Below, piece by piece: positions 8,261-30,659 of a DNA stretch of 34,391 bases; position 1 is the stretch's first letter, and every line of letters begins with the position of its first letter. The notes under the pieces were generated by a model, which had not been told where the DNA came from, ran no database searches, and was given only the letters and a program-made list of their open reading frames with translations. The position numbers were made by a program, and so were the translations under genes. The DNA is from Thermoflexales bacterium. Lineage in GTDB: Bacteria > Chloroflexota > Anaerolineae > B4-G1 > DUEL01. The stretch is from NCBI GenBank assembly GCA_014360895.1, contig JACIWQ010000004.1, positions 1 to 34,391 on the forward strand, in the 5' to 3' direction.

Positions 8261-8288
8261 CACGGAGCACGGAACACGGAATACGGAT
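8261..8288. repeat. Copy of the 'acggaatacg' repeat
   Basis: The sequence cacggagcacggaacacgg and the following atacgg form a direct array in the gap downstream of the RNase J gene, overlapping its stop. The remainder of 8126-8260 shows no gene. Confidence 0.75.
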
Positions 8289-9940: not shown

Positions 9941-9942
9941 TC

Positions 9943-9964
9943 GTGTTCCGTACTCCGTGTTCCG
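9943..9964. repeat. Copy of the 'acggaatacg' repeat before RNase J
   Basis: gtgttccgtactccgtgttcc occupies the 24-bp gap between the DUF3368 toxin gene and the RNase J start, covering the expected ribosome-binding region. Confidence 0.75.
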
Positions 9965-20079: not shown

Positions 20080-20957
20080 GGTACCGCTTCTACCCCGGAT
20101 GTTCGCAGGAAGGGACGGCGCGGGAGTACCGGGATTCCACGCTGGCGGTGCTGGAGGCGCTGGGCGCGGAGGTCCAGGAACTGGAGGACTGGACCTGCTG
20201 CGGGGCCAGCGTCGCCCCGGTGATGAGCGACCTGCTGGGATTGGTCCTCCCGGCCCGCAACCTGGCGCTGGCGGAACAGCAGGGCGACGGTCGGGACATG
20301 CTCACCGTCTGCAGCGCGTGCTACACCAACTTCCGCCGGACCGCCGCCACCCTGGCCGGAGACCGCAAACTCCACGAGACGGTCAACCGGGCCCTGGAGG
20401 TGGAGGGCCTGACCTACCGCGGGACGGTGACGGCCCGGCACATTCTGGACGTCCTGGCGAACGACTTCGGGCCGGAGGCGGTCCGGGCGCGGGTCCGGAA
20501 GCCCCTGGCAGGGCTGACCGTCGCCCCCTACTACGGCTGCCAGACGGTCCGCCCCTACAGTCCCTACGACAACCCCCAGCGCCCCACCTCTATGCTCCCG
20601 ATTCTGGAAGCGCTGGGAGCGAAGGTACACCGTCATCCCCGCGAAGCGTCCTGCTGCGGGACCTCGCTGCTGATGACCAAACCGGAGGTGGGCCTGACGA
20701 TGGCCGGCGCGGTGCTGGCGGCCTGCGAGGGCGCGGACTGCATCGTCACCGTCTGCCCGATGTGCCATATGAACCTGGACGCCTATCAGGATAAGGTCTC
20801 CCGGCTGCTGGGCCGGACGGTGCGCATCCCCGTCGTCCACCTGCCCCAACTGATGGGCCTGGCCTTCGGGCTGCCGGAGGAAATCCTGGGCCTCCGGCGC
20901 CACGTCACCCCGGTAAAGTTAACCGCAAAGAGCGCGAAGGACGCAAAGGAAAACTAA
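20076..20957 (+). CDS. hdrB: Heterodisulfide reductase subunit B
   Basis: The 293-aa HdrB is the disulfide-reducing subunit. It has two complete CCG domains for noncubane [4Fe-4S] clusters: C9, C41-C42, C79, C82 (CX31CCX36CX2C) and C155, C193-C194, C227, C230. In methanogens the substrate is CoM-S-S-CoB; in bacteria it is usually unknown. The final residues, about LTAKSAKDAKEN and the stop codon, are encoded by the left arm of a repeat unit starting at 20921, so the natural C-terminus has been replaced or extended. The next conserved gene, hdrA, is 568 bases away, past three repeat units and a GxxExxY gene. Confidence 0.95.
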   Translation: MRYRFYPGCSQEGTAREYRDSTLAVLEALGAEVQELEDWTCCGASVAPVMSDLLGLVLPARNLALAEQQGDGRDMLTVCSACYTNFRRTAATLAGDRKLHETVNRALEVEGLTYRGTVTARHILDVLANDFGPEAVRARVRKPLAGLTVAPYYGCQTVRPYSPYDNPQRPTSMLPILEALGAKVHRHPREASCCGTSLLMTKPEVGLTMAGAVLAACEGADCIVTVCPMCHMNLDAYQDKVSRLLGRTVRIPVVHLPQLMGLAFGLPEEILGLRRHVTPVKLTAKSAKDAKEN

Positions 20958-20988
20958 AAACTTCGCGCTCTTTGCGCCCTTTGCGGTT
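20921..20988. repeat. Repeat unit A (hairpin) overlapping the hdrB end
   Basis: The left arm starts aaccgcaaagagcgcgaagg, a short A-rich loop follows, and the right arm ends cgccctttgcggtt, forming an imperfect hairpin. The hdrB stop codon lies in the loop region (20955-20957). It is the first of three consecutive units. Confidence 0.9.
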
Positions 20989-20996
20989 GGATCCCG

Positions 20997-21433
20997 AACC
21001 GCAAAGAGAGCGAAGAACGCAGAGAAGTGGATGAGAACGCTCTTTCCAACCGGATTATTGGTGCTGCTCTGGAGGTTCATCGCCAGTTAGGGCCAGGTTT
21101 GCTGGAATCGGCTTATGAAGAGTGCCTGGCCTACGAATTGAGTCTGCACGGTATCCCATTTGAGCGGCAAAAGCCTATCCCAGTAGTTTACAAAGGCATC
21201 CGCTTGGATTGCGGTTTCCGGGTGGACCTGCTGGTAGATAACCTGGTCGTTGTGGAACTAAAGGCTGTAGACACTTTGATGCCCATTCATCAAGCACAGG
21301 TGCTGACATACTTGAAATTGACAGGATGTCGGTTGGGTTTGTTAATCAACTTTAATGTGGTCAGGCTGCGGGAAGGGATCAAGCGAGTCGTTCTAAACCT
21401 GTAACCTTCGCGCCCTTTGCGTCCTTTGCGGTT
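20997..21433. mobile_element. Repeat unit B: inverted repeats enclosing a GxxExxY gene
   Basis: The left arm (20997-21026, aaccgcaaagagagcgaaga...) and right arm (21405-21433, ...tttgcgtcctttgcggtt) are the same arms as in the short units A and C. Here the loop holds a complete GxxExxY gene whose GTG start directly follows the left arm and whose stop touches the right arm. Spacers to units A and C are 8 and 7 bases. The layout resembles a gene-bearing element next to two gene-less copies of the same termini. No target-site duplication is evident by eye. Confidence 0.75.
21027..21404 (+). CDS. GxxExxY protein (PD-(D/E)XK nuclease-like)
   Basis: The 125-aa product carries the motif that names the family: G24-L-L-E27-S-A-Y30. 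A possible nuclease core follows: D67 in RVDLLVD and E77-L-K79 in VVELKAVD, fitting D-X9-ExK. The family is assigned to PD-(D/E)XK-like folds; biological role is unknown. The start is GTG at 21027, just past the left repeat arm, with little ribosome-binding sequence. The gene is visibly more AT-rich in third positions than hdrB and hdrA around it, suggesting transfer. It is enclosed in repeat unit B and breaks the hdrB-hdrA order. Confidence 0.9.
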   Translation: MDENALSNRIIGAALEVHRQLGPGLLESAYEECLAYELSLHGIPFERQKPIPVVYKGIRLDCGFRVDLLVDNLVVVELKAVDTLMPIHQAQVLTYLKLTGCRLGLLINFNVVRLREGIKRVVLNL

Positions 21434-21440
21434 CATTCCC

Positions 21441-21511
21441 AAACCGCAAAGAGCGCGAAGGACGCAGAGAAAACCTGAAAACCTTTGCGCTCTTCGCGTC
21501 CTTTGCGGTTT
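21441..21511. repeat. Repeat unit C (hairpin) ahead of hdrA
   Basis: aaaccgcaaagagcgcgaag begins the left arm and ctcttcgcgtcctttgcggt lies at the end of the right arm around an A-rich loop. It ends just before the AAGGAG ribosome-binding site of hdrA, so it lies in the hdrA leader and could affect transcript processing. Confidence 0.9.
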
Positions 21512-21525
21512 AAAGGAGAGTCACT

Positions 21526-23484
21526 ATGGAACAACCCCGAATCGGCGTCTACATCTGCGAGTGCGGCGTCAACATCTCGGCGACGGTGGACACGAACGCG
21601 GTGGCGGAGATGGCGGCGAAACTCCCCGGCGTCGTTGTCGCCCGCGTCTACAAGTACATGTGCTCCGAGCCGGGCCAGTTGATGATCCAGGAGGACATCC
21701 GCAACCTGGGCCTGAACCGGATCGTCGTCGCGTCCTGCACCCCCCGGATGCACGAGACCACCTTCCAGCGGGCCCTGGAGACGGCGGGCCTCAACCCGTA
21801 CTACTTCCAGATGGCCAACATCCGGGAGCATGTCTCCTGGATCACCGACGACCGGGAGGCCGCCACGGAGAAGGCGAAGCGGCTGGTACGGGCCGCCGTC
21901 TTCCGGGTGCCGTACCAGGCCCCCCTGGAGCCCCGTCGGGAGCCGGTGGTGAAGGCCGCTCTGGTCGTCGGCGGCGGCATCGCGGGCATCCAGGCCGCCC
22001 TCTCCATCGCCGACGCGGGCTACCAGGTCTACCTGGTGGAACGGGAGCCCTCCATCGGCGGGCGAATGGCCCAACTGGATAAGACCTTCCCCACCCTGGA
22101 CTGCAGTACCTGAATTCTCGGCCCCAAGATGATGGATGCCGGTCGGCATCCCAACATCACCCTGCTCACCTACAGCGAAGTGGAGGCGGTCTCCGGCTAT
22201 GTGGGCAACTTCACCGTCCGCATCCGCAAGCGGGCCCGGTCGGTAGACGAGGAGAAGTGCACCGGCTGCGGCCTCTGCCAGGAGAAATGCCCCACGAAGG
22301 TCGTGGACACGGCCTACGAGGCCGGAATGGGCAAGCGGAAGGCCATCTACCGCCCCTTCTCCCAGGCCATCCCCAACATCCCCGTGATTGACCGGGAGAA
22401 CTGCCTCTTCTTCACGAAGGGCCGCTGCAAACTCTGCGAGAAGGTCTGCCCGGCGGGCGCGATTGACTACAACCAGCAGGACCAGTTGCTGGACGTGCAG
22501 GTGGGGGCCATCATTGTCGCCACGGGCTACGAGATGTGGGACCCCCGCAAACTCCCCCAGTACTCCTACGGCCTCTCGCCCAACATCATCACCGGCCTGC
22601 AGTTTGAGCGGCTGGTGAGCGCCACAGGTCCCACCGGCGGGCACATCGTCACCGCCGAAGGGAAGGAGCCGGAGCGGGTCGCCATCATCCACTGCGTCGG
22701 GAGCCGAGACGTCAACGCCCATCCTTACTGCTCCCGTTTCTGCTGCATGTACTCCCTGAAGCACGCGCACCAGGTCCGGGAGAAGACGGGCGCGCAGGTC
22801 TACGAGTTCTATATGGACATGCGGGCCTTCGGCAAGGGCTACGAGGAGTTCTACGAGCGGGTGCAGGAGGACGGCGTCATCTTCGTCCGGGGCCGGGGCG
22901 CCGAGGTGGAGGTCCTGCCCGACGGCAAACTGCGGGTCAAGGGCGAGGACGCGGACCTGGGGCGGCTGGTCTCAGTGGACGTGGACATGGTCATTCTGGC
23001 CTCGGCGATAGAGCCGCAACCGGACGCGGACCGGGTGGCGGCGATTTTCGGCCTGGGCCGGACGCCCGACGGCTGGTTTGCCGAGGCGCACCCCAAGTTG
23101 CGCCCCGCGGAGACGGCGACGGCGGGCATCTTCCTGGCGGGCTGTTGCCAGGGCCCCCGCGACATCCCCGATACCGTCTCCCACGCCGACGCGGCGGCGA
23201 TGCAGGTGGTCCGTCTCTTCAACCAAGGCGAAGTGACCATCTCGCCGACGGTCGCGGTGGTGGACGAGGTGAAGTGCGTGGGCTGCGGCGAGTGCATCCT
23301 GGCCTGCCCGTACTCGGCGATTGCCCGCAACCTGCGGGGCAAAGCGGAGGTCAACCCCGCCCTTTGCCAGGGCTGCGGCACCTGCGTCGCCACCTGCCCG
23401 TCGCACGCCATCACCGGCCTGCACTTCACCGACGAGCAGATTGTGGCGCAGATAGAGGGTCTGCTGGAAGGGGTGCTGGTGTAG
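21526..23484 (+). CDS. hdrA: Heterodisulfide reductase subunit A, selenoprotein (Sec196)
   Basis: Read through the in-frame TGA at 22111-22113, this is a 652-aa HdrA, the flavin subunit that bifurcates or confurcates electrons. Without read-through two fragments result. The N-terminal region has CEC (residues 11-13). The FAD Rossmann motif VVGGGIAGIQAA begins about 147, and IGGRMAQLDKTFPTLDCST leads into U196 followed by ILGPKMMDAG; this position is Cys or Sec in HdrA. Ferredoxin-type motifs follow: C245-C248-C251-C255, a second group in GRCKLCEKVCPAGAI, and two [4Fe-4S] sites at 583-630 (KCVGCGECILACP; LCQGCGTCVATCP). AAGGAG precedes the ATG. A SECIS-like hairpin lies at 22134-22151. Confidence 0.93.
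22134..22151 (+). promoter_or_regulatory. Predicted bacterial SECIS hairpin in hdrA
   Basis: A perfect 7-bp stem (ggatgcc/ggcatcc) encloses the loop ggtc, 27 bases after the TGA. Bacterial SECIS elements are hairpins shortly downstream of the UGA with G and U in the apical loop, recognised by SelB. Confidence 0.75.
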
Positions 23485-23493
23485 CAAAGGAAA

Positions 23494-23578
23494 ACGGAAT
23501 ACGGAATACGGAATACGGAATACGGAGTACGCAGTACGCACGTATTCCGTATTCCGTACTCCGTATTCCGTACTCCGT
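23494..23578. repeat. Palindromic 'acggaatacg' array, left of the four-helix-bundle gene
   Basis: Four to five direct copies of acggaatacg/acggagtacg are followed by the reverse-complement array (cgtattccgtattccgtact...). The array starts 10 bases after the hdrA stop and ends just before the GGGAGG of the next gene. Confidence 0.9.
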
Positions 23579-23593
23579 TTCGGGAGGGTGGCG

Positions 23594-24091
23594 ATGACGT
23601 ATGAGGAGTGGCTGCAGAGCGTGCCGCCGGAGATTACGGCCGACCCGCTCTGGCAGATGCGGGTGTACCGCTTGGCCCTCTTCGCGGGCGACCTGGGCTG
23701 GCACGACGTCTCCATACTGGCCCAGGATGCCCGAACGCGCGGTCTGGCCGACCAGTTGTATCGGGCCCTGGGCTCCATTGCCGCCAACATCGTCGAAGGG
23801 TACAGCCGCCACTCCGGGAAAGAACGGGCCCGCTTCTACGAATACGCCCTGGGCTCCGCGCGCGAGGCCCGGACCTGGTACTACGAAGGGCGACACGGCC
23901 TGCGGGACGCGGTCGTAGACCACCGGCTCCGCCTGCTCACCCAGATTGTCCGCCTGCTCCTCTCCATCATCCCCGCGGAGCGAGAAACGACCGGTATCCT
24001 GCAACTGCGGGAAGGGAGCGGGCTCTATCTCTACAGCACCGACCCCGATACCGAACTCTCCCAACTTCTGAGCGAAGTCCCTATGCCATAA
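23594..24091 (+). CDS. Four helix bundle protein (S23/Avd-like)
   Basis: The 165-aa product is all-helical and matches four helix bundle proteins, the family that includes 23S rRNA intervening-sequence proteins and diversity-generating-element accessory protein Avd. The diagnostic region is LADQLYRALGSIAANIVEGYSR (residues about 50-73) followed by ERARFYEYALGSAREARTWY. I chose the ATG at 23594, with GGGAGG six bases upstream, over GTG at 23588. It lies between hdrA and the second mvhD, with arrays of the same short repeat on both sides. No reverse transcriptase or template repeat is nearby, so there is no sign of a diversity-generating element. Function unknown. Confidence 0.82.
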   Translation: MTYEEWLQSVPPEITADPLWQMRVYRLALFAGDLGWHDVSILAQDARTRGLADQLYRALGSIAANIVEGYSRHSGKERARFYEYALGSAREARTWYYEGRHGLRDAVVDHRLRLLTQIVRLLLSIIPAERETTGILQLREGSGLYLYSTDPDTELSQLLSEVPMP

Positions 24092-24092
24092 A

Positions 24093-24163
24093 ACGGAGTA
24101 CGGAACACGCAATACGGAATACGCAATACGGAATACGCAACACGGAATACGCAATACGGAGTC
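24093..24163. repeat. 'acggaatacgcaatacgg' direct array, right of the four-helix-bundle gene
   Basis: About seven degenerate copies of acggaatacg/acgcaatacg run in one direction from two bases after the stop of the four-helix-bundle gene to the start of mvhD2. Confidence 0.9.
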
Positions 24164-24167
24164 CGCC

Positions 24168-24581
24168 ATGTTTGAACCCCGAATTGTCGCTTTCTTGTGC
24201 AACTGGTGCTCCTACGCCGGAGCGGACAACGCCGGCATCGCGCGGATGAAGTCGCCGCCGAACATCCTGCCCATCCGGGTGATGTGCTCCGGGCGGGTCT
24301 CGCCGGAGATGATTCTGCGGGCCTTCCGCGCCGGCGCCGACGGCGTCCTGGTGCTGGGCTGCCACATCGGCGACTGCCACTACATCAACGGAAACCACCG
24401 CACCGCGAAGCGCATCCCGCTCCTGCGCAACCTGCTGGCCTACGTGGGCATCAACCCCCAGCGGCTGCGGCTGGACTGGGTCTCCTCGGCGGAGGCGCCG
24501 AAGTTCGCCCAGGTCACCGCCGAATTCGTGGAGACGGTCCGCGCCCTGGGGCCCATCAAGGACGAATTGGGCCTAAAGTGA
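24168..24581 (+). CDS. mvhD: MvhD/FlpD-family iron-sulfur electron-transfer subunit (copy 2)
   Basis: The 137-aa product is a close paralogue of the first MvhD, with C11, C14 (LCNWCSYAGAD), C40, C65 and C70 in the expected places. It should pass electrons to HdrA. It follows hdrA in the cluster, separated only by the four-helix-bundle insertion. The repeat array directly upstream leaves no obvious ribosome-binding site, so translation may depend on coupling or be weak. A strong hairpin overlaps the stop codon, so the Hdr transcript probably ends here. Confidence 0.93.
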   Translation: MFEPRIVAFLCNWCSYAGADNAGIARMKSPPNILPIRVMCSGRVSPEMILRAFRAGADGVLVLGCHIGDCHYINGNHRTAKRIPLLRNLLAYVGINPQRLRLDWVSSAEAPKFAQVTAEFVETVRALGPIKDELGLK

Positions 24582-24616
24582 CAGTCACCTTTGAGGTGAC
24601 TGTCACTTTACTTTTT
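24575..24616 (+). terminator. Rho-independent terminator after mvhD2
   Basis: A perfect 16-bp stem (aaagtgacagtcacct / aggtgactgtcacttt) with a 3-nt loop is followed by acttttt. The left arm includes the mvhD2 stop codon. The perfect symmetry could also reflect a dispersed palindromic repeat used as a terminator. Confidence 0.85.
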
Positions 24617-24635
24617 GGACAACATTGGCTATAAT
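24607..24635 (+). promoter_or_regulatory. Promoter of the toxin-antitoxin island
   Basis: A perfect TATAAT (24630-24635) has a weaker -35, TTTACT (24607-24612), at a 17-base spacing. The -35 overlaps the tail of the preceding terminator. The alternative TTGGAC is only 9 bases away and is not credible. Confidence 0.6.
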
Positions 24636-24653
24636 TGGATTGCGTTAGCCAAT
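24624..24653. promoter_or_regulatory. Inverted repeat over the -10 region (candidate antitoxin operator)
   Basis: The 8-bp arms attggcta (24624-24631) and tagccaat (24646-24653) are exact reverse complements with a 14-bp spacer. The left arm overlaps the TATAAT, and the antitoxin start is 18 bases downstream, as expected for autoregulation by a Phd-type antitoxin. Confidence 0.65.
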
Positions 24654-24670
24654 TAGGGGGGGGTCAAGGG

Positions 24671-24952
24671 ATGCCCACGGTCATATCGGCGACGGAGGCG
24701 AAGAACCGTTTCGGGGAGGTCATCCGCCGGGTCTACCGGGACGGCGAGACCTTCATCGTGGAGCGGGACGGTCTCCCGGTGGTAATGATTGTGCCGGTGC
24801 GAGAGACGGCAATGGCCAGTCTCCGGCGATTTGCGCGCGCGGTTCGGGCCGCGGCTCAGGAAGCCGAGACGCTGGGAATCACCGAGGAGGGCGTGGAGCA
24901 GAGCGTAGAGGAAATCCGGGAGGAACTCCACCGGGAGCGCTGGGGTGGGTAG
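24671..24952 (+). CDS. Phd/YefM-type antitoxin
   Basis: The 93-aa product has the Phd/YefM N-terminal DNA-binding fold (VISATEAKNRFGEVIRRVYRDGETFIVERDGLPVVMIVP) and a charged C-terminal toxin-binding tail. It should bind the PIN toxin encoded next and repress its own promoter. I start it at the ATG at 24671 because the family begins with this sequence; an earlier TTG at 24635 falls within the promoter. It opens a run of seven small overlapping or closely spaced genes of toxin-antitoxin type. Confidence 0.87.
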   Translation: MPTVISATEAKNRFGEVIRRVYRDGETFIVERDGLPVVMIVPVRETAMASLRRFARAVRAAAQEAETLGITEEGVEQSVEEIREELHRERWGG

Positions 24953-24968
24953 AGGACCGTTGCGGGTT

Positions 24969-25454
24969 ATGGCGGATACCAACATCCTCATCAGCGGCGT
25001 GATTTTCCCTCGCGCGGCCTATGAGTTCCTGCGACATGCTTTGCGAGGGGACTTCACCCTGGTCGTCTCGGAACAAATCTTGGCCGAAGTACGCCGCTGG
25101 ATGGAGAAGAAAGCGACACCGCTCCAGCGCGCTGCGCTGGAGGTTTTCCTGGAAGAGGGGGCCTTTGAGATTGTACCGGATCCCCCCGCAGAGGAAATTC
25201 GTCAGCATACTAACCTGGTGAGGGATGTCAAAGATATTCCGATCGTCCTCGCTGCGATACAAGCGGGCGTAGATTTCCTTGTCACCAACGACCAGGATTT
25301 GATCGCCGAAGGTGAGACAACGGCTCTGCTCCGCCGCTACGTATCCCCGATGCATGTAGTAACCTTTCTACGTGAAGTGATGGGCTGGAGCCCGGAGGAA
25401 CTGGAGGCGGTCCGGCAACGGACGTGGGAGGAGGTAGAAGATGAGACTGCATAA
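24969..25454 (+). CDS. PIN-domain toxin (VapC-like)
   Basis: The 161-aa reading has a PIN domain: first acidic residue in MADTNILISGV, a conserved Glu in SEQILAEVRRW, and TNDQDL near the C-terminal part of the domain. These acidic residues bind Mg2+ in RNase toxins. The start is uncertain: ATG at 24969 gives the usual family N-terminus, while TTG at 24960 and GTG at 24945 are in frame and would overlap the antitoxin gene. It overlaps the HicB-like gene by 14 bases. Paired with the Phd-type antitoxin upstream. Confidence 0.85.
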   Translation: MADTNILISGVIFPRAAYEFLRHALRGDFTLVVSEQILAEVRRWMEKKATPLQRAALEVFLEEGAFEIVPDPPAEEIRQHTNLVRDVKDIPIVLAAIQAGVDFLVTNDQDLIAEGETTALLRRYVSPMHVVTFLREVMGWSPEELEAVRQRTWEEVEDETA

Positions 25455-25683
25455 ACTGCCCCTTGTATTTGAGCCTCAGCCGGAAGGCGGATACACGGTG
25501 ACCTGCCCGCTGATTCCGGAACTGATCACCGAAGGGGATACCGTTGAGGAGGCGCTGGAGAACGTCCGGGATGCCTTGGTTGCAGTGATGGAGGCCTGTG
25601 AGGACCTGAATCGTCCTGTGCCGCCAATTTTACAGCATTTGGCAGATGTTAGCCCGCCATTCGGCACTCCAGCAACTCTGTGA
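25441..25683 (+). CDS. HicB-like antitoxin-type protein
   Basis: The 80-aa product matches the HicB N-terminal fold: LPLVFEPQPEGGYTVTCPLIPEL, then EEALENVRDALVAVMEAC. HicB normally neutralises HicA, but no HicA gene is next to it; its neighbours are a PIN toxin gene (14-bp overlap) and a nucleotidyltransferase gene (38-bp overlap). No C-terminal DNA-binding domain is visible. It may be an orphan or may have adapted to one of the neighbouring toxins. Confidence 0.83.
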   Translation: MRLHKLPLVFEPQPEGGYTVTCPLIPELITEGDTVEEALENVRDALVAVMEACEDLNRPVPPILQHLADVSPPFGTPATL

Positions 25684-26071
25684 ATCCTTCGGCGTGGACA
25701 TCCTCTACGCCTTCGGCAGCCGGGCCGGGGAGGTCCGGGCCTGGCTGGAAGGGAAGGCTGATGCGCTTGCCCCCGGCCCTTCGGATGTGGATATCGGGGT
25801 GAAGCCCGCGCGGGGGGTTCACCTCTCCGTCCACGACAAGGTCCGGCTGGCGGTCGCGCTGGAGGACCTCCTCGGCGTCCACCGGGTGGACCTGGTTTCG
25901 CTGGACGACGCGGACCCCTTTCTGGCGGCGGAGATTATCCGGGGCGAGCGCCTCTACGCCCGCGACGAGGACGACGCCGACGAGTACGACCTCTACGTCC
26001 TGCGCCGCGCGGGGGACCTGGCCCCGCTGGAGCGGGAACGGCTCGCGTTGATTCTGGGAGAGGCGGTATGA
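25646..26071 (+). CDS. MntA-like minimal nucleotidyltransferase antitoxin
   Basis: The 141-aa product has the nucleotidyltransferase pattern, with GS at residues 24-25 (YAFGSRAGEV) and the metal-binding pair D47-D49 (SDVDIGV), then HRVDLVSL carrying a third Asp. In MntA antitoxins the toxin HepT is inactivated by AMP transfer. The gap between GS and DXD is 21 residues rather than the usual 10, because of an extra stretch RAWLEGKADALAPG. It overlaps the HicB-like gene at its start and the HepT gene by 4 bases at its end. Confidence 0.86.
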   Translation: MLARHSALQQLCESFGVDILYAFGSRAGEVRAWLEGKADALAPGPSDVDIGVKPARGVHLSVHDKVRLAVALEDLLGVHRVDLVSLDDADPFLAAEIIRGERLYARDEDDADEYDLYVLRRAGDLAPLERERLALILGEAV

Positions 26072-26526
26072 CGCCCGGCAAAATCTCCCAGCGGGTGGTG
26101 GCGGACCGGCTGGCCTGGGTGGAGCGGATGCTGGGGGAAATCCGCTCCCTTCCGCTGGCCGACCGGGAGGCCTTCTTCGCCGACCGGCGCAACCTGTGGG
26201 CGGCGGAATCCTGCCTGCGGCGGGCGCTGGAGGCGCTGCTGGACCTGGGCCGGCACATCCTGGCGAAGGGTTTCGGTGTCGGAGTGACGGAGTACAGGGA
26301 AATCGCGGCAGCCCTGGGAGAGCGCGACGTTCTCTCTCCCGACGAGGTGGCCCTCTTGAGAACATTGGCCGGATACCGGAACCGGCTGGTCCACTTCTAC
26401 CACGAAGTGAGTCCGGAGGAACTCTACGAGATTTGTCGCCAGCGCCTGAGCGACGTGGAGGAAATCGCGGCGGCATACCGGCGCTGGCTGGGAGAGCATC
26501 CGGAATGGCTGAACGAACGGCTGTAG
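26068..26526 (+). CDS. HepT-like HEPN ribonuclease toxin (DUF86)
   Basis: The 152-aa helical protein matches HepT. The catalytic RX4H motif is R104-NRLV-H109, and Y111 completes RX4HXY, where the tyrosine is the AMPylation target in studied MntA/HepT pairs. It should cleave RNA (tRNA in known cases) when not AMPylated. It overlaps the MntA-like gene upstream by 4 bases, the usual order and coupling, and the next nucleotidyltransferase gene by 22 bases. Confidence 0.9.
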   Translation: MTPGKISQRVVADRLAWVERMLGEIRSLPLADREAFFADRRNLWAAESCLRRALEALLDLGRHILAKGFGVGVTEYREIAAALGERDVLSPDEVALLRTLAGYRNRLVHFYHEVSPEELYEICRQRLSDVEEIAAAYRRWLGEHPEWLNERL

Positions 26527-26882
26527 GGTTTCCCGCTGTGATTCGGGCCCGAGGCTTCCCGGAAGTGGACGCCCAGGCCTTTCGCGCGCTGGTCCAGCGG
26601 CTGGTCAAAGCGCTGCACCCAGAGAAAATCATCCTTTTCGGGTCTTACGCCCGGGGCACCGCCACAACCGACAGCGACGTGGACCTGCTGGTCGTGATGG
26701 AAACCGGCGATCCTCCTGTTGAGCGATACCTGAAAGTATCTCGCCTGTTGCGCCCCCGTCCCTTTCCGGTAGACATCCTGGTCAAGACTCCGGAGGAAAT
26801 CCAACAGGCATTAGCGAAGGGGGATTTTTTCATCCGGGAAATTCTCCAGCACGGTCTGGTTCTGTATGAGCGCCATCCTTGA
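26505..26882 (+). CDS. Minimal nucleotidyltransferase (second MNT)
   Basis: The 125-aa product has the canonical GSX10DXD motif: G46-S47 in ILFGSYARGTA and D58-D60 in SDVDLLVV, with a later Asp in FPVDILV. It belongs to the MNT group usually coupled to HEPN proteins. The ATG at 26505 lies inside the HepT gene; GTG at 26538 is an alternative. It overlaps the downstream HEPN gene by 17 bases. Base composition is less GC-rich than the redox genes around the island. Confidence 0.87.
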   Translation: MAERTAVGFPAVIRARGFPEVDAQAFRALVQRLVKALHPEKIILFGSYARGTATTDSDVDLLVVMETGDPPVERYLKVSRLLRPRPFPVDILVKTPEEIQQALAKGDFFIREILQHGLVLYERHP

Positions 26883-27252
26883 CCCAAAAGCATGGGTTGC
26901 CAGAGCCGAGGAGGATTACCGGCTGGCCCAATCAGCGTTGCGCCGGAAGCGGCCGTTGTTGTACGGTGCCTGCTTTCACGCCCAACAGTGCGCCGAGAAA
27001 TATCTGAAAGCCTTGCTGGTTCTCCGTGAACGAGACTTTCCGAAGACGCATGACCTGACCGCCTTGGTCGCTCTGTGTGAAGAGGTGGGCATCATCGTGC
27101 CCGTCCATCCGGACGACCTGGACCGGCTCTCCGCTTATGCTGTCGGCGTCCGCTATCCGGGCGAGGAACCCCTTCCAGAAGAAGCCCGGGCGGCCGTGCA
27201 AATAGCGGGAAAAGTCCGGCGGTTCGCCCGCCGATTGCTGGGACTCAAATAA
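26866..27252 (+). CDS. HEPN domain protein (second MNT/HEPN pair)
   Basis: The 128-aa product has the HEPN pattern LLYGACFHAQQCAEKYLKALL and KTHDLTALV. Unlike the HepT protein upstream it lacks a clear RX4-6H catalytic motif, so it may bind nucleotides or a partner without cutting RNA, or use other residues. It overlaps the second nucleotidyltransferase gene by 17 bases and closes the island; the iron-sulfur gene of the redox cluster starts 21 bases later. Confidence 0.88.
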   Translation: MSAILDPKAWVARAEEDYRLAQSALRRKRPLLYGACFHAQQCAEKYLKALLVLRERDFPKTHDLTALVALCEEVGIIVPVHPDDLDRLSAYAVGVRYPGEEPLPEEARAAVQIAGKVRRFARRLLGLK

Positions 27253-27273
27253 CACCGAGAGGAGTACCTGCGA

Positions 27274-28098
27274 ATGGCTCCAAACGACCTTCTGGACACC
27301 CTGCGCGCCCACGTGGCGGAGAAACTCCCCGAACTGGACGGCGTCGTTGGCCTGCGGCGGACCGTCGTGGGCACCGCGCCGCATCTCTTCCGCCAGGGGG
27401 ACGACCTCTCCGAACTGGTCCTCTTCCCCCGCTACCCCCTGGCCCCGGTGGTCTCCCTGCTCCAGAAGCGCTACCCGCAGGCCCGCTTCGGCATCGTCGC
27501 CCGCGCCTGCGACCTGCGCGCGCTGGTGGAGATGGCCAAGCGGAACCAAGTGGACCCCGACCGGCTCTACATCCTGGGGGTCGCCTGCACCGCAGAGGAG
27601 GCGGAAGAGTGCCACTGCGACGCCTCCTTCCCGAAGACGGAGGGCTGGCCGCAGGCGGTGGCGTTGGGGACGCCATCTCCCGCCGGCTCGCCCAATCCCA
27701 TCATCGCCCGGTATGAGACGATGGGCCTGGCGGAGCGCTGGGCCTTCTGGCGGGAACAGTTCGCCAAGTGCATCAAATGCTACGGCTGCCGCAACATCTG
27801 CCCGGAGTGCTTCTGCGAGGCCTGCGCGCTGGAGGACCCGTTGTGGGTGGAGCCGGGGGTGCTGGCCCCGCCCTTCCCGTCCTTCCACCTCATCCGAGCC
27901 ATGCACATGGCGACCCGCTGCGTCGGCTGCCGCCAGTGCGAGTTGACCTGCCCGGCCCACATCCCGCTGACCGTCCTCTACGACCTCCTGCGGCGGGACG
28001 TAGCGGAACTGCTGAGCTACGAAGTCGGCGCCGACCTCTTCGCCGCCCCGCCGCTCTCGCTGACGCTGGCCGACGCGCCGATTGTAGAGGTGGAGTGA
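27274..28098 (+). CDS. FrhB/FdhB-like iron-sulfur subunit with two [4Fe-4S] motifs
   Basis: The 274-aa protein probably transfers electrons between formate dehydrogenase and the MvhD-Hdr complex. Residues about 50-110 (YPLAPVVSLLQKRYPQARFG, ACDLRALVEMAKRNQVD, LGVAC) resemble the FrhB/FdhB and related N-terminal region. Cysteine groups follow at C166-C169-C172-C176 (CIKCYGCRNICP) with C179, C181 and C184 nearby, and C216-C219-C222-C226 (CVGCRQCELTCP). Whether it binds a flavin or cofactor F420 cannot be decided. GAGGAG lies nine bases before the ATG. It is upstream of fdhA with a YgiT-type gene between them. Confidence 0.85.
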   Translation: MAPNDLLDTLRAHVAEKLPELDGVVGLRRTVVGTAPHLFRQGDDLSELVLFPRYPLAPVVSLLQKRYPQARFGIVARACDLRALVEMAKRNQVDPDRLYILGVACTAEEAEECHCDASFPKTEGWPQAVALGTPSPAGSPNPIIARYETMGLAERWAFWREQFAKCIKCYGCRNICPECFCEACALEDPLWVEPGVLAPPFPSFHLIRAMHMATRCVGCRQCELTCPAHIPLTVLYDLLRRDVAELLSYEVGADLFAAPPLSLTLADAPIVEVE

Positions 28099-28589: not shown

Positions 28590-30659
28590 ATGGACTACCG
28601 AAACATCCTCACCGTCTGCCCGTACTGCGGGGCCGGTTGCGGCCTCTACCTGCAGGTCCTGGACGGAGAGATTGTCGGCGTGCTGCCGGCTAAAGAGCAC
28701 CCCGTCAGCGAGGGGAAACTCTGCATCAAGGGCTGGAACGCCGCCGCCTTCGTCCACCACCCGGACCGGCTGACAACCCCCCTCATCCGGGAGGGCAACG
28801 CCTTCCGGGAGGCATCCTGGGACGAGGCGCTGGGCCTGGTCGCGGAGCAGTTGCTCCACATCCGCGATACCTACGGCCCCGACGCCCTGGGCTTCCTGGT
28901 CTCCGCCAAGTGCACCAACGAGGAGAACTACCTGGCCCAGAAACTGGCCCGCGCCGTCTTTAAGACCAACAACGTGGACCACTGCGCCCGTCTCTGACAC
29001 TCCCCCACGGTGGCCGGTCTGGCCGCCGCGTTCGGCAGTGGCGCGATGACCAACTCCACCCCGGAGTTCAGCCAGTACACCCGGTGCTTCCTTATCACCG
29101 GCTCCAACACCACTGAGGCCCATCCCCTGGTCGCCAGCCACGTCCTGAAGGCGAAGGAGCGGGGCGCGAAAGTGGTCGTGATTGACCCGCGCGAGGTGCA
29201 GATCGGCCGCCTGGCCGACCTCTACCTGCGCCCCCGCCCCGGCACCGACGTCGCCTGGCTCAACGGCCTGATGTACGTCATCGTCACCGAGGAGTTGGCC
29301 GACCAGGAGTTCATAGAGAAGCGGACCGAGGGGTTTGAGGAGATGTGGCGGGTGGTCCAGCAGTACCCGCCGGAGCGGGTGGAAGAAATCACCGGCATCC
29401 CCGCGGACGACCTGCGGGCCGCGGCGCGGATGTACGCCCAGAACAAACCCGCCGCCATCCTCTACGCGATGGGCATCACCCAGCACACCACCGGCGTGGA
29501 CAACGTCAAGAGCATCGCCAACCTGGCTATGCTCACCGGCAACCTGGGCATCCCCGGCGGCGGCGTCAACCCCCTGCGGGGCCAGAACAACGTCCAGGGC
29601 GCCTGCGACATGGGTGGTCTCCCCAACGTCTACCCGGCCTACCAGCCCGTCACCTCGCCGGAGGCGAAGGCCAAATTTGAGGCCGCCTGGGGCGTGGAGG
29701 GCCTCTCCGACCGGATCGGCCTGACCGTCGTGGAGATGGTGAACGCGGCGGGGGAGGGGCGGCTGCGGGGCCTCTTCGTAATGGGCGAAAACCCCATGCT
29801 CTCCGACCCCGACATCCAGCACGCGCGGGAGTGTTTGGAGAGACTGGAGTTCCTGGTGGTGCAGGACATTTTCCTCACCGAGACGGCCCAACTGGCCCAT
29901 GTGGTCCTTCCGGGGGCGTCGTTCGCCGAGAAGGACGGCACCTTCACCGCCACCGACCGGCGCATCCAGCGGGTGCGGAAGGCCGTGGAGCCGCCGGGCC
30001 AGGCGAAGGCCGACTGGGAAATCCTCTGTGAACTGGCCAAGCGTCTTACGCAACACGCAATACGCAATACGCAGTGGGACTATCCCTCCCCGGCCGAAAT
30101 CATGTCCGAAATCGCCCGCGTCGCGCCCTCCTACGGCGGCGTCACCTACGAGCGGCTGGACCGGGAGGGCTCCCTCCAGTGGCCCGTCCCGTCGGTAGAC
30201 CATCCCGGCACGCCGTACCTGCACAAGGAGAAGTTCACCCGGGGCCTGGGCCGCTTCCACGCCATAGAGTTCCAGGAGGCGGCGGAACTGCCCGACGAGG
30301 AGTACCCGTTCATCCTCACCACGGGCCGCATGATGTTCCAGTTCCACACCGGAACGATGACCCGCCGGTCGCCCAAACTGGAGCAGGAGGCGCCGGAGCC
30401 CTACGTGGAGATGAATCCCGAGGACGCGGCCCGCATCGGCCTGGACGGCACGCGGCGGGTGCGGGTGGTCAGCCGCCGGGGCGCCATTGAGGTCGCCGTC
30501 CGGCTGACGGAGCGCATCCGGCCCGGCGTTGTCTTCATCCCCTTCCACTACGCAGAGGCCGCGGCCAACGTCCTCACCCACGCCGCGCTGGACCCCGTCG
30601 CCAAAATCCCGGAGTACAAGGTCTGCGCGGTGCGGGTGGAACCGGTGGGGGAAAAGTGA
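28590..30659 (+). CDS. fdhA: Formate dehydrogenase alpha subunit, selenoprotein (Sec136)
   Basis: Read through the TGA at 28995-28997, this is a 689-aa molybdopterin (bis-MGD) formate dehydrogenase. The N-terminal [4Fe-4S] motif is C10-C13-C17-C45 (CPYCGAGC). U136 is in [18 protein letters not shown], aligned with the Sec of E. coli FdhF (CARVUHGPSVAGL). Molybdopterin domains follow ([37 protein letters not shown]) and a C-terminal MGD-binding domain ([20 protein letters not shown]). It is the short cytoplasmic type without NuoG-like extensions. An in-frame repeat insertion (THAIRNTQ-like, near residues 486-495) interrupts a loop. A SECIS-like hairpin follows the TGA. It should interconvert formate and CO2. 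Confidence 0.95.
29008..29028 (+). promoter_or_regulatory. Predicted bacterial SECIS hairpin in fdhA
   Basis: An 8-bp stem (cggtggcc/ggccgccg, one G-U pair) carries the apical loop ggtct. The loop begins 18 bases after the TGA, the same distance and loop sequence as in E. coli fdhF. Confidence 0.9.
30047..30074. repeat. 'acgcaatacg' repeat copy inside fdhA
   Basis: tacgcaacacgcaatacgc followed by aatacgcag lies in frame and encodes about nine residues (TQHAIRNTQ) between an otherwise normal ELAKRL and YPSPAEIM. It is the same motif as the intergenic copies. Confidence 0.85.

Follow-up and report, generated by a model that had tools for sequence, protein, structure and literature searches.

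Genes of the S23 four-helix-bundle (4HB) family are generally flanked by tandem arrays of short repeats, and the same architecture recurs across bacterial phyla and in archaea. The repeat unit is 7 nt long, sometimes 8 nt, and the arrays on the two sides of the gene are inverted relative to each other. The unit turns over while the complementarity of the two sides is kept, whole blocks are present or absent between relatives, and solo arrays are dispersed through the genome. Our preferred reading, to which we give a probability of about 55%, is a selfish cassette resembling the intervening sequences (IVS) of 23S rRNA, lodged between genes of ordinary operons, with the solo arrays as by-products. 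No literature joining the 4HB family with such repeats was found in open-access papers.

The cassette between hdrA and mvhD

The window is the whole stretch of DNA that was analysed, 34,391 nt from a contig of a Thermoflexales bacterium. The features discussed here are as follows.

20945-21486, + strand: GxxExxY cassette, with its gene at 21027-21404 (TIGR04256, 162 bits)
22129-23484, + strand: main part of hdrA (HdrA2-like), the upstream operon gene (NF040770, 531 bits; Fer4 domains)
23492-23531, + strand: upstream array, forward half, ACGGAAT/ACGGAGT heptamers
23541-23580, - strand: upstream array, inverted half, hairpin partner of the forward half (93% complementary)
23594-24091, + strand: four-helix-bundle gene, 165 aa (S23 / 23S rRNA IVP family; TIGR02436, PF05635)
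24093-24160, + strand: downstream array, about 9.7 heptamers
24168-24581, + strand: mvhD (FlpD family), the downstream operon gene (PF02662, 178.7 bits)

An earlier note on this DNA had described a 4HB gene between hdrA and mvhD with a palindromic acggaatacg array on its 5′ side and a second array on its 3′ side. Gene and arrays are present as described (23492-23580 and 24093-24160). The note had also called the downstream array direct, which holds only when it is compared with the first half of the upstream palindrome; compared with the second half the array is inverse. Forward ACGGAAT/ACGGAGT copies begin at 23494 and inverted copies occupy 23541-23578, within repeat arms of 40 nt separated by a 9-nt loop. 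The hdrA stop codon lies a few nucleotides 5′ of the upstream arm, and the downstream array starts directly after the 4HB stop and ends just 5′ of the mvhD start, so that the cassette fills the spacer. All three genes are on one strand, and the 4HB gene has an alternative GTG start at 23588.

Allowing at most one mismatch, ACGGAATACG matches 32 times in the window against 1.27 expected, with a maximum of 4 in shuffles. The unit also occurs in the window away from any 4HB gene, at 1084-1132, 8269-8285, 9942-9958 and 30055-30071. RNA folding of the cassette gives z = -3.4 and a predicted 40-bp upstream hairpin, with the upstream array preferring to fold on itself. An Rfam search returned nothing above threshold, only sub-threshold look-alikes of miRNA hairpins.

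The encoded protein scores 63.1 bits with TIGR02436 (cut-off 24) and 53.7 bits with PF05635, 23S_rRNA_IVP (cut-off 33.8). Its AlphaFold model (pLDDT 88.5) matches the S23 structures 2gsc and 2rld in Foldseek (target TM-scores of 0.89-0.90 and an rmsd of 1.4-1.6 to 2gsc). The next matches are Avd proteins of diversity-generating retroelements, 4dwl (probability 1.00) and 8ube. Only S23/four-helix families match in a profile search, which found no enzymatic domain. We know of no function for the S23/IVP family, although structures were solved and released in 2006-2007; the gene is best known from certain ribosomal RNA genes, in which it is a passenger. In Xanthomonas the S23 protein forms a homopentamer of four-helix bundles, according to work cited in PMC4990558.

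Several other features of the neighbourhood deserve mention. A perfect 17-bp inverted repeat lies 3′ of mvhD (arms 24574-24590 and 24594-24610), and a GTGACAGTCACCT palindrome at L392:5246-5314 resembles it. Between mvhD and the next operon gene is a 2.7-kb block of small genes (24579-27284), absent from the same-genus genome G077; the genes look toxin-antitoxin-like (Phd/PIN, the others read by eye). The hdrA frame, 21526-23484, is open through a single in-frame TGA at codon 196 (LDCST-U-ILGPKMM), which is conserved in G077 and G045, and judging from sequence the gene probably encodes a selenocysteine HdrA. A VhuD-like gene, among the mvhD/vhuD paralogs, has an in-frame TGA as well (VMVAG-U-LEGECHY, read in L214 and L215), and two other same-genus genomes (L199 and L204) have one TGA each in this gene, which suggests selenocysteine here too.

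Inverted arrays at four-helix-bundle genes

The ACGGAAT sequence itself is not what ties repeat to gene; it fails the test set in the earlier note, and we reject it in that role. In the source genome ACGGARTACGGARTACG has 58 matches at about 34 sites (0 for its reversed control), of which just one adjoins a 4HB gene, and only one of the seven TIGR02436 genes carries the unit. The more general proposal, of a link between simple palindromic repeats and particular small proteins, is strongly supported: inverted arrays of period 7 (or 8) are usual at 4HB genes, with another unit each time. All seven 4HB genes of the source genome have arrays within 250 bp, with the units GTCGGTA, GGAGTAG, the 8-mer GAATGACA, a GTCGCAG-like unit, the 8-mer GGCAAGTT, ACGGAAT and AGTGAAA. 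A scan of 4HB flanks in this genome and its class that allowed any period from 5 to 10 found period 7 in 26 and period 8 in 6, with other periods nearly absent.

Arrays of period 7 or 8 lie within 250 bp of 12/29 4HB genes in the class and of 15/20 homologs of the window protein, against 0/30 PIN-domain genes. They are also concentrated near the gene: at 20 class loci we counted 17 arrays in 16 kb near and 54 in 351 kb far. Among homologs with at least 43% identity, taken from genomes chosen for having ACGGAAT arrays, all 24 loci (the window's own included) show arrays or clear remnants of arrays upstream and downstream. The operons differ from locus to locus, and in most cases the two flanking arrays are inverse complements of each other (e.g. 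GTATTGC / GCAATAC). Most of ten additional 4HB loci are alike, with three weak (L328, L332, L336). An Anaerolineae MAG chromosome (L254) and the class genome G030 have the same 4HB flank, which makes Anaerolineae the probable identity of the class. Orthologous sites can differ in unit, with both flanks changing together, as at the gltX-adjacent loci L164 and L170.

We extended the survey to 80 loci spread over many bacterial phyla, with a few from archaea. The set consists of the best-scoring loci from one peptide motif, taken from a narrow alignment, so it leans towards canonical short 4HB proteins. Across the whole analysis, most genomes are MAGs. Period 7 was found at 39 of the 80 loci and period 8 at 5, with 0-1 for each other period; among random windows from these loci the counts were 18/400 and 1/400. 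About 45% of the loci had no clean array at our threshold, though many of these nonetheless gave an inverted-repeat score.

Complementarity between upstream and downstream flanks, assessed against permuted partners, gave z = 29 for the 80-locus set (76 usable), 13 for the class and 12 for own plus homologous loci; PIN control genes showed none (z = -1.1). Inverted relations between flanks outnumber direct ones by 61 to 11. There is a strand rule as well, with upstream arrays G-rich (skew +0.44, in 86% of 81) and downstream arrays C-rich (-0.44). An inverted score of at least 16 was reached by 71% of 4HB genes and by 1.4% of 220 other genes at the same loci, as delimited by a crude gene caller (p = 6e-27), and arrays within 150 bp accompany 40/76 and 23/220, respectively (p = 3e-13). 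The PIN and same-locus controls lead us to reject chance microsatellites. Related 4HB proteins tend to have common units (Mantel r 0.24, permutation maximum 0.16): the unit is shared in 49% of pairs at protein similarity 0.6-0.8, compared with 3% of the most distant pairs.

The GxxExxY genes, to which the earlier note had drawn a parallel, carry inverted arrays too. At 34 such loci the flanks are inverted with z = 15.5, mostly with 8-10-nt units. Inverted 8-10-nt arrays or hairpins can be seen at the GxxExxY (PD-(D/E)XK-like) genes of L018-L023 and L407-L435. A further locus, L389:9915-10728, has an 814-bp intercistronic insertion, absent from G077, whose flanks are an array of the 9-nt unit CACAAAGGA and a long one of the 8-nt unit TCATTCTG; such arrays may carry other small genes too.

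Presence, absence and dispersal

A TIGR02436 match is present in 83/120 class genomes. We estimated array densities from sampled genome stretches. Six class genomes with no TIGR02436 match, G077 among them, gave 0 period-7/8 arrays in 366 kb of sampled stretches. Nine 4HB genomes gave 10 in 400 kb, unevenly distributed (5/9 gave none), and the source genome 28 in 400 kb. In the source-genome sample, four of six paralog units tested also occur as solo arrays elsewhere, a count to be read with its controls: the best shuffled unit equalled ACGGAAT and GTCGGTA in sites, and reversed AGTGAAA also matches. G077, with no detected 4HB gene, still has two solo-array hits.

The window cassette occurs at the matching site in G045 and G294, with 85-87% protein identity and different array lengths. 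At the same site G077 has an unrelated 161-bp spacer, and G259 has what looks by eye like a PIN toxin-like gene. A second 4HB cassette, on contig C205, is likewise absent from G077 (spacer 675 bp versus 197 bp). We found no target-site duplication or recent jump; at the two empty 4HB sites of G077 the spacers have diverged and the ends are inexact, blurred by a sequence identity between the relatives of only about 88%. At its GxxExxY cassette the window has 542 bp inserted between the two arms of a hairpin, and in G077 the hairpin stands alone at that point. An allele lacking the gene and keeping an array, which the earlier note had proposed to look for, thus exists for GxxExxY; at the 4HB site G077 has neither gene nor arrays.

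The operons that harbour 4HB cassettes are unrelated (hdr, gua, acc, nuo, pdh and gltX-adjacent). Cassettes inside housekeeping operons were seen at L313 and L279 (guaB-guaA), L282 (accB-accC) and L165/L167 (nuoJ-nuoK region), with the gua, acc and nuo names read from sequence by eye; in the guaB-guaA spacer a cassette is at the matching site in two betaproteobacterial lineages. Cyanobacterial plasmids, some of them conjugative, carry 4HB genes as well (L444, L446 and L448, from Calothrix, Trichormus and Nostoc). Short upstream arrays with inverted downstream counterparts are clear in L444 and L448 and partial in L446. The occurrence of one 4HB gene on two Calothrix plasmids does not count as two independent insertions, since the gene tables of these plasmids have neighbouring genes in common.

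Neither a reverse transcriptase nor a Y1 transposase is supported as an obligatory partner of the 4HB gene. Ten 4HB genomes, including G045, match neither RVT_1 nor Y1_Tnp.

Interpretation and comparison with known systems

A selfish, IVS-like cassette would consist of one S23-family gene and its mutually inverted arrays. In a polycistronic mRNA the arrays would pair with each other in the cell, or fold on themselves as the upstream array of the window is predicted to do, and form long stems round the gene. RNase III probably cuts the stem, by analogy with the S23-encoding IVS of 23S rRNA. It is probable that the S23 protein, as a multimer, binds the units of its own repeat and helps both the cassette and solo arrays to be copied; each paralog would thereby keep its own repeat family. 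The cassette itself would be mobile. Its insertion would be tolerated because stop codons and start signals of the genes next to it are left intact. That complementarity is kept while the unit changes points to pairing, or to copying of one array from the other.

Alternatively, the 4HB protein could be a host regulator that binds the arrays and tunes its own operon, with the dispersed arrays as other targets. The cassettes do occupy co-directional, intercistronic positions in conserved operons (both neighbours on the same strand at 42/64 4HB loci versus 11/27 PIN loci), each paralog has its own unit, and a regulatory role has been assigned to dispersed heptanucleotide arrays in Geobacter (PMC2700814) and Beggiatoaceae (PMC4679880). 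We nevertheless think regulation unlikely, given that the operons have nothing in common, close relatives do without the insertion and no conserved regulon is visible.

Next in order, and also of low probability, is a REP-like origin, in which IS200-like (Y1/HUH) transposases mobilise the arrays as hairpins and the 4HB gene is a passenger. Like REPs, the arrays are palindromic, dispersed and intergenic. The source genome has two Y1_Tnp copies, of which one (C50:7078) shares its contig with ACGGAAT arrays, and Y1_Tnp correlates with 4HB presence (68/83 versus 19/37 genomes, p = 9e-4). Against this, the ten genomes without a Y1 transposase or reverse transcriptase match include one that shares the window cassette, and the arrays track 4HB genes on both sides, with units that correspond to the protein. 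Known REPs, as PMC3733652 describes them, are palindromes of 20-40 bp rather than arrays of 7-mers.

Lower again we place a retro-element in which the 4HB protein acts like Avd and a reverse transcriptase is supplied in trans. The fold matches Avd (4dwl, 8ube), PF05635 resembles Avd (PMC10053308), and reverse transcriptases are commoner in genomes with 4HB genes (34/83 versus 3/37), but RVT_1 has no match in the source genome, despite its seven cassettes, or in 49/83 4HB genomes overall. Neutral growth of 7-nt arrays by slippage in tolerated spacers, where accessory genes merely happen to sit, would fit the orthologous sites of G000, G045 and G294, whose arrays vary in length and in units. It is very improbable, however: the mutual inversion of the flanks, with its strand rule, already contradicts it, none of the 30 PIN genes and only a small share of the other genes at these loci have arrays, the periods are 7 and 8 only, and arrays are absent from the sampled genomes that lack 4HB genes.

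If the selfish-cassette reading is right, the S23 protein gains a candidate substrate, its own 7-nt array. A broader proposal, which we put at somewhat below even odds, is that the cassettes form a widespread class of mobile elements in bacteria and archaea, in which a 4HB protein with no known nuclease, transposase or polymerase domain recognises inverted 7/8-nt arrays, moves between operon spacers and seeds solo heptamer arrays; GxxExxY genes, whose arrays have 8-10-nt units, would form another class in parallel. Housekeeping operons (gua, acc, nuo, pdh) are among those with such cassettes in their spacers.

Dispersed heptanucleotide arrays as such are not new. They are familiar in cyanobacteria as STRR sequences, which share with ours the 7-nt tandem arrays at many intergenic places. 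The same form is described in Geobacter metallireducens (GGACCGG/MTYCTGA elements, PMC2700814) and in Beggiatoaceae (TAACTGA, PMC4679880); by word search, these two papers name no four-helix-bundle gene, and no link to the 4HB family was found in the literature searched. The origin of bacterial heptanucleotide arrays is otherwise unexplained, and the tie across phyla explains a class of intergenic repeats.

REP elements with their RAYT (TnpA-REP) genes are similar in that a gene lies between palindromic repeat copies in inverted orientation, non-autonomous copies are dispersed and the repeat family is tied to the protein paralog. They differ in that our protein is a four-helix bundle rather than a Y1/HUH transposase and the repeats are 7/8-nt tandem arrays. 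With diversity-generating retroelements the cassette has the four-helix fold of Avd in common (4dwl), whereas the source genome has no reverse transcriptase match.

The closest comparison is the S23-encoding IVS of 23S rRNA in Leptospira and Coxiella, an ORF within a long stem that is excised by RNase III and has long been suspected of being mobile (PMC4990558). Both enclose an S23/PF05635 ORF in terminal inverted repeats that can form a stem, both sit in a multi-part transcript, with co-directional genes on either side of the cassette at many loci, and the IVS too has been suspected of being selfish. Unlike the IVS, the cassette is hosted by a spacer between protein-coding genes, here hdrA and mvhD; its stems are tandem 7/8-nt arrays whose unit varies by locus, and it has solo arrays dispersed through the genome. 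That S23 intervening sequences might be mobile is an old idea, which thereby becomes testable in cultured hosts.
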